A stretch of DNA of 40,610 nt from Halocatena pleomorpha (lineage in GTDB: Archaea; Halobacteriota; Halobacteria; Halobacteriales; Haloarculaceae). The notes beneath the pieces were generated by a model. It saw only the letters and a program-made list of their open reading frames with translations, was not told the DNA's origin and made no database searches. Below, piece by piece: positions 39,802 through 40,610 of the stretch; position 1 is the first letter of the stretch; every line of letters starts with the position of its first letter. The translations under genes and the position numbers were made by a program. The DNA lies in assembly GCF_003862495.1 (NCBI RefSeq), contig NZ_RRCH01000013.1:1-40610 (forward strand). Reading direction: 5' to 3'.

Positions 39802-39977
39802 TGACTTGACTATATTTTATATAATAAATTCCATAGGCATAATTTTATTTGGATATGAAGACAATCGGTGTTACTACTAGATATCGTAATGAAACTCATA
39901 ACACGTCTCTATAAAATACAAATCAATACAAGAACTCTATAACAAAACGGAAACGGCCTCTCAGGGACTACTGCGTC
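39802..39977 (+). promoter_or_regulatory. AT-rich spacer with two box A candidates
   Basis: This 176-base stretch is strongly AT-rich compared with everything to its left. Near the truA stop it reads as T- and A-rich terminator-like sequence (TATATTTTATATAATAAA). CTATAAAATA (39909-39918) and TCTATAAC (39936-39943) are possible box A elements for the next gene; the second would give a leader of about 10 nt. No convincing gene is seen. Confidence 0.45.
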
Positions 39978-40610
39978 ATGCCGAAAGACAGCAGGAAGCG
40001 CGACGGAATTGGACGAAGAGACCTGGTAAAAATGCTCGGTGCAACTGGCGTTACGCTCGGGACGCTCGGGACGGGGATCACCGTCGCGTCAGCCAGTGAC
40101 GGTCGAAGGGACGGGAAACACCACAAACGGAAAACTCCGAAAGACCTCAATATTGCATACACGCGCAAATACGGGGAGTGGTGGCCCGACACGTACGACG
40201 ACATCGGAAAGGAAGTCGACCCGGACAAATTCTACATCAAAGGCGACAAACGGAAGGTGATGATCTGTGCTCCCTTCCCGTTCTCGGTTACCTTCGCCAC
40301 TCGGAAAAAGAAGCACAAGAAACGCAAGAAGCACAAGAAACGCGACGAGAACAACAACGAGAACCGAAAGGAGCACCACCGGAGAGGTCGGTCGCGCGGT
40401 CGCTTCAAGGGCTGTAAGAAACAAAAAACGGTTCGCTCCAAAAAGGACAGAGGGCATCACCGCGTTAAGATCGAGTGCCCCAAGAAAAAGAAGATCTGTT
40501 GGTTCCGTGTCCACCATCCGGACAAAAAGGACCGTCGCGATAATCACGATCACCACCGTGGCCGCCATGGCCGAGATGGTCGAGACGGTCACGATGGTCA
40601 CGATGGCCGA
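39978..40610 (+). CDS. Tat-exported, extremely basic His/Lys-rich protein with collagen-like triplets (3' partial)
   Basis: An open frame with no stop before the window edge; 211 codons are visible. A Tat signal is clear: GRRDLVKMLGATGVTLGT (11-28), with likely cleavage after ASA (37-39). Residues 40-108 are moderately basic with KYGEWWPDTYDD and Cys97. Residues 109-122 are fourteen Lys/Arg/His in a row, and basic residues stay dominant to about 190. Cys146, Cys167 and Cys174 lie in this part. From Gly195 come five complete Gly-X-Y triplets (GRH GRD GRD GHD GHD). A basic secreted protein is the opposite of the acidic haloarchaeal norm. The codons mostly end in G or C as in neighbours, so it seems expressed. 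I recognise no family. Polyanion, surface or metal binding are guesses. Confidence 0.75.
   Translation, partial: MPKDSRKRDGIGRRDLVKMLGATGVTLGTLGTGITVASASDGRRDGKHHKRKTPKDLNIAYTRKYGEWWPDTYDDIGKEVDPDKFYIKGDKRKVMICAPFPFSVTFATRKKKHKKRKKHKKRDENNNENRKEHHRRGRSRGRFKGCKKQKTVRSKKDRGHHRVKIECPKKKKICWFRVHHPDKKDRRDNHDHHRGRHGRDGRDGHDGHDGR

Follow-up and report, generated by a model that had tools for sequence, protein, structure and literature searches.

The open reading frame that ends a 40,610-nucleotide stretch of Halocatena pleomorpha DNA (hereafter the window) is, judged from sequence comparison, a genuine gene encoding an exported haloarchaeal protein. Alignments and predictions strongly support a product made of one Cys-containing beta domain, exported through the Tat pathway and belonging to a haloarchaeal family without a name, and they support as strongly that tandem duplications which keep the frame alter the length of two regions, a loop inserted in this domain and the C-terminal tail. 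The family is real, unusual and taxonomically patchy, and its loop became hyper-basic in one sublineage. As to its role, we tentatively favor (probability about 0.4) a surface- or matrix-binding module whose loop would contact acidic partners, with the tail as a spacer.

Results

Reading frame and continuation beyond the contig break

The gene starts with ATG at 39978 and stays open on the plus strand to the end of the contig (39978-40610, 211 residues, 5′ part only), with truA to its left. The window is the whole of contig C5, so its right edge is an assembly break within repeats. The sequence to the right of 40610, which the first-pass annotation had proposed to read, very probably lies at one end of contig C3. 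Read on its minus strand, this contig opens in a similar repeat and extends the frame as DGRRGRDGRDDHDGHRGRDGRDGRGRDCRKKDDD-stop. The C-terminus obtained in this way, DCRKKDDD-stop, resembles that of the orthologue in genome G003 (DCRKKNDD) and lacks the hydrophobic segment of a PGF-CTERM anchor. Genomes G003 and G005 carry truA, the gene, a surface protein (approximately 324 residues) and pepF in one uninterrupted order, and of the two flanks of the gene there, one matches C5 and the other C3. The join of C5 and C3 is very likely because of this continuous order, the matching flanks and the similar end in G003; the C3 end is very probably the continuation of the gene, DGRRGRDGRDDHDGHRGRDGRDGRGRDCRKKDDD-stop being the part beyond a gap in which repeats are lost. 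The neighboring surface protein on C3 (L004, 8807-9781) carries a C-terminal membrane segment weakly like those of PGF-CTERM proteins, and its position next to truA is conserved throughout the genus.

The first-pass annotation had named a sequencing artefact in the basic run as a condition that would refute it; the reading frame is real, as shown by the collinear G003 orthologue and by the occurrence of the loop in the same frame in relatives. By a simple Nei-Gojobori count, dN/dS between the window gene and the G003 orthologue was 0.24 overall, 0.05 for residues 56-108 and approximately 0.26 for the loop; these low values mark a real gene under constraint, which is strongest in the first core half. 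Change was faster in the loop (pN 0.20) than in the core (pN 0.02).

Export signal and composition

Each of the features first noted in this frame is present: a Tat signal, a Lys/Arg/His stretch (residues 109-122), four Cys, and triplets of the Gly-X-Asp type where the contig ends. The Tat signal peptide region lies at 39978-40097 (plus strand; Arg-Arg at 40014-40019), and its motif GRRDLVKML matched NCBIfam TIGR01409 with 17.5 bits against a cut-off of 16.7; cleavage is likely near VASA. Residues 109-122 (RKKKHKKRKKHKKR) form a 14-residue run of Lys, Arg and His, and a run of at least 14 such residues arose in just 0.045% of shuffles of the mature part, in which these residues make up 43% as far as the partial protein extends. 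The Cys residues are at positions 97, 146, 167 and 174. The long open reading frames of the window are nearly all acidic, a rough comparison because their selection favored acidic frames. The description of an exported, strikingly basic protein on an acidic background is supported.

Core domain

The core beta domain is divided by the loop into a first half, the most conserved part in alignments (residues 56-108; 40143-40301, plus strand), and a second half with the ICWFR signature, delimited by alignment (residues 145-181; 40410-40520, plus strand). The conserved segments read GLNIAYxxKYGEWWPDTYDD..PDxFxIEGDxxxVTICAPFPFxVSYATRKK and ICWFRVxCP. A structure model built on six sequences (mean pLDDT 69) places strands on either side of a low-confidence loop (pLDDT <50; model residues 62-88, corresponding to protein residues 114-140). 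The monomer prediction suggested by the first-pass annotation gave beta strands and a low-confidence loop, and no confident match to a solved fold, the best Foldseek hit of this model having an E-value of 0.27. Sequence comparison of the core with solved structures gave nothing with E <0.2, and the fold search with a long form of the protein gave weak Ig/FnIII-like matches. The suggested profile search likewise had a divided outcome: relatives were found in several haloarchaeal genera, but the core matched no profile above cut-off in Pfam, NCBIfam or PHROGs. The earlier remark that no described haloarchaeal system of this kind was known agrees with the family libraries searched, and the open-licence literature likewise yielded no such system.

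Basic loop and charged tail

The expandable basic loop (residues 109-144; 40302-40409, plus strand), predicted to be disordered, opens with the Lys/Arg/His run at 40302-40343. This run includes a perfect 18-nt tandem duplication (40308-40343, plus strand; 100% match by TRF) that encodes KKHKKR twice. The loop is 18-116 residues long in all members except those of Haladaptatus, whose compact domains of approximately 85 residues have the two core halves joined directly. Its units differ by lineage, being KKHKKR in the window gene and GGKHGGKH and KGW in Natrinema, and the repeat periods are mostly multiples of 3 (for example 9, 12, 18, 27, 30, 33, 39 and 57). In all ten members examined the loop contains 21-55% Lys/Arg and has a net charge of 0 to +15, never net negative, whereas in three long forms the charge of the part preceding it was measured and came to between -41 and -53. 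His accounts for 11-30% of the loop in nine of the ten members (3-30% overall); the window loop has 51% Lys/Arg and 11% His, and that of the paralogue 3% His. Since the loops of G005 and G242 are charge-neutral with high His, a basic surface is not universal in the family.

The tail, of low complexity and made up of basic residues and Asp, starts at 40521 and runs to the break at 40610 (plus strand), as delimited by the sequence, the C3 continuation and orthologues. The Gly-X-Asp form is confined to this species; relatives have RD/HD, KDHDKDHGKD, KHDDWKHDKKRDE or KEEKEK repeats, with RD, KDHD or KHDD motifs. A Cys stands within the last seven residues in all five tailed members. The longest uninterrupted Gly-X-Y run before the break comprises five triplets, four of them with Asp at Y, and after the break the triplets are interrupted by DHD.

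Distribution and architectures of the family

The family was detected in 8 of 391 sampled genomes of the class. Protein and profile searches placed relatives in Halocatena (H. marina, L040), Natrinema (L041-L044), Haladaptatus (L071, L072) and a few other haloarchaea, and none in viral contigs and phage records. Short forms consist of a Tat signal, the core domain and a charged repeat tail; long forms consist of a Tat signal, a Cys-rich module, one or two Ig-like modules and the core domain, and in one Haladaptatus protein the core follows an ASH-type domain. These partner assignments, Ig-like or ASH-like, are mostly weak matches. Homology of the N-terminal module of the long forms to the core, suspected from strand order, was unsupported by profile comparison.

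The protein had been called hyper-basic, which holds for the window protein (pI 11.0 for the partial sequence) but not for the family, because the syntenic G005 orthologue has a pI of 5.7 and the long forms are strongly acidic proteins containing a basic loop; the corresponding values are 10.0 for G003 and 9.3 for the short form of H. marina. In G001, G004 and H. marina, truA directly adjoins the surface protein and the gene is missing from this slot; H. marina has one short and one long copy at other sites. Two Haladaptatus regions also carry glycosyltransferase, O-antigen ligase-family or glycoside hydrolase genes, and comparison by eye found no neighbors conserved between genera.

Further members and records were noted. 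A second member in the same genome (L005, 6850-8313 on contig C22) is a long form, an acidic protein with a basic loop. In G158 a 49-residue remnant of the second core half (L068, 7683-7829) lies behind a stop, apparently as part of a broken family gene. Two core-domain proteins are encoded close by on a Haladaptatus megaplasmid (L072, 2015-3550 and 4560-5930), one of them with a further related-looking C-terminal module. G002 and G006, classified as different species, gave matches at identical contig coordinates and may share one chromosome; one of the pair has higher contamination.

Upstream elements

Three elements precede the gene on the plus strand. The block ATATCGTAAT (39881-39890) is identical in the three syntenic Halocatena orthologues, and a longer form of it has a single occurrence in the genome. 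A TATA-like box (TATAAAA, 39910-39916) has a similar and similarly spaced counterpart in G003 and in Natrinema. Approximately 27 nt past this box lies the conserved element ATAACAA (39939-39945). With start codons harmonized, TAACAA precedes the start codon by approximately 36-40 nt in 10 of 12 family genes, which come from three genera, and nine of the ten have the form ATAACAA; (T/C)ATAACAA precedes the window gene, L036, L037, L039, L040, L041, L071 and L072, and L005 has TTAACAA. Among the 14 occurrences of [CT]ATAACAA in the 263 kb examined, ten precede family genes (two of these being close Natrinema copies). The element looks like a transcript start region, and its recurrence in three genera suggests common control of the family genes. 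When ATAACAA was tried across the same genome as an element common to exported genes, it gave 30 matches against 23 in a reversed control and hence no clear enrichment; among the matches heading an open frame, the window gene alone has a Tat signal. Several copies, possibly by chance, occur in a cluster resembling surface polysaccharide synthesis (L126/L127, contig C23, 245000-272000) whose proteins appear by eye to be flippase-, glycosyltransferase-, sulfatase- and epimerase-like; two of these copies are 34-35 nt before start codons.

Discussion

The sequence supports both export and the domain architecture, and the proposed role is built on composition, architecture and the Haladaptatus neighborhoods. 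The folded domain would belong, as a module, to a protein of the cell surface or extracellular matrix, and its flexible loop of Lys, His and Arg may provide a surface for many weak contacts with acidic partners, for example S-layer or exopolysaccharide glycans or DNA; the alternating basic and acidic tail would serve as a flexible, soluble spacer and might be paired by way of the Cys near its end. Consistent with such a role are the Tat signal and the absence of a C-terminal anchor from the C3 continuation, conservation of the core across several genera under purifying selection, the predicted strands with low confidence exactly at the insert, and the loop-free compact domain of Haladaptatus. 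The contrast in charge between the loop and the part before it, the in-frame repeats with units mostly of multiples of 3, the Ig-like or ASH-like partners (mostly weak matches) and the glycan-related genes in the two Haladaptatus regions point in the same direction. The main objection is that electrostatic attraction is strongly screened at molar salt. Also against this role are the neutral, His-rich loops of G005 and G242, the lack of a neighbor conserved across genera, and a core that has no confident solved-structure match and a model drawn from six sequences. The boldest version, an extracellular family that binds acidic glycans or DNA near salt saturation by polycationic Lys/His loops grown from minisatellites, as an exception to the acidity rule, seems rather improbable to us.

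A rival to be taken seriously, although on balance unlikely, is neutral growth of the repeats: loop and tail would be minisatellites tolerated at exposed sites, slippage would set their composition, and the beta domain would do the work while the loop binds no ligand. The in-frame tandem repeats of many unlike units, the loop-free Haladaptatus domain, the faster change of the loop and an inconstant charge all fit this explanation. It accounts less well for the fact that units as unrelated as KKHKKR, GGKHGGKH and KGW all yield Lys/Arg-rich loops, nearly all rich in His and never net negative, which is unusual for acidic haloarchaeal proteins. Capture of zinc, copper or similar metals outside the cell by the His/Asp-rich loop and tail, with calcium perhaps bound by the Asp-rich tail, is less probable still. 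Coordination escapes salt screening, most loops are rich in His, Natrinema has HGGKHGGK repeats and tails have HD/DHD ones, the Halocatena clade has been noted for secreted proteins that carry Asp-rich repeats (PMC10067837), and periplasmic zinc proteins (ZnuA, PA4063) offer a model, binding such ions by disordered loops rich in His; but the window loop is mostly Lys/Arg, the paralogue loop is poor in His, no metal-uptake genes were recognized nearby, and profile searches matched no metal family.

Two further explanations are very improbable. The collagen-like trimer proposed by the first-pass annotation is contradicted by the orthologues, none of which keeps Gly at each third position; the tail itself, despite five consecutive triplets and more beyond the break, is Pro-free, short and interrupted, with Asp at Y. 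A part in hyphae or spore formation is suggested by the genus (in the GTDB sense), which has hyphae- and spore-forming strains, YIM 93972 among them, and in which many of the genes gained are secreted (PMC10067837). The gene is nevertheless outside the set shared by morphogenetic strains (PMC10067837), being missing from G001 (YIM 93972) and G004 with the slot empty, and it is present in Natrinema; given its absence from the hyphal relative, it does not count as a shared morphogenesis gene.

If the loop does bind polyanions at molar salt, the family would show charge-based adhesion under strong electrostatic screening. Even otherwise, it offers a natural series of absent, neutral and hyper-basic loops on one conserved domain, with which the tolerance of exported haloarchaeal proteins for basic regions can be tested, and it reveals a domain missed by Pfam, NCBIfam and PHROGs.

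The protein is exceptional with respect to haloarchaeal acidity and ordinary in that a secreted domain bears a loop expanded by repeats. What prokaryotic collagen-like proteins share with it is a short stretch of Gly-X-Y, confined to this single species, whereas here the triplets are not conserved, Pro is lacking and no trimerization domain is seen. ZnuA and PA4063 would be comparable, should the metal explanation be right, in that their folded, exported domain has a disordered loop rich in His; they differ in their known zinc context and the lack of a polylysine run, and no sequence relation was detected. The secreted hypothetical proteins WP_227777636.1 and WP_227779059.1 of Haladaptatus pallidirubidus share the Tat-like signal, the beta domain with IHWFR/ICWFR and the upstream element, but their compact domain has neither basic loop nor charged tail and stands alongside Ig-like or other modules. 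The Natrinema long forms (L041-L044) have the same domain with a loop of KGW and GGKH repeats at the same place, and differ in their extra N-terminal modules, the lack of a tail and an acidic character overall.
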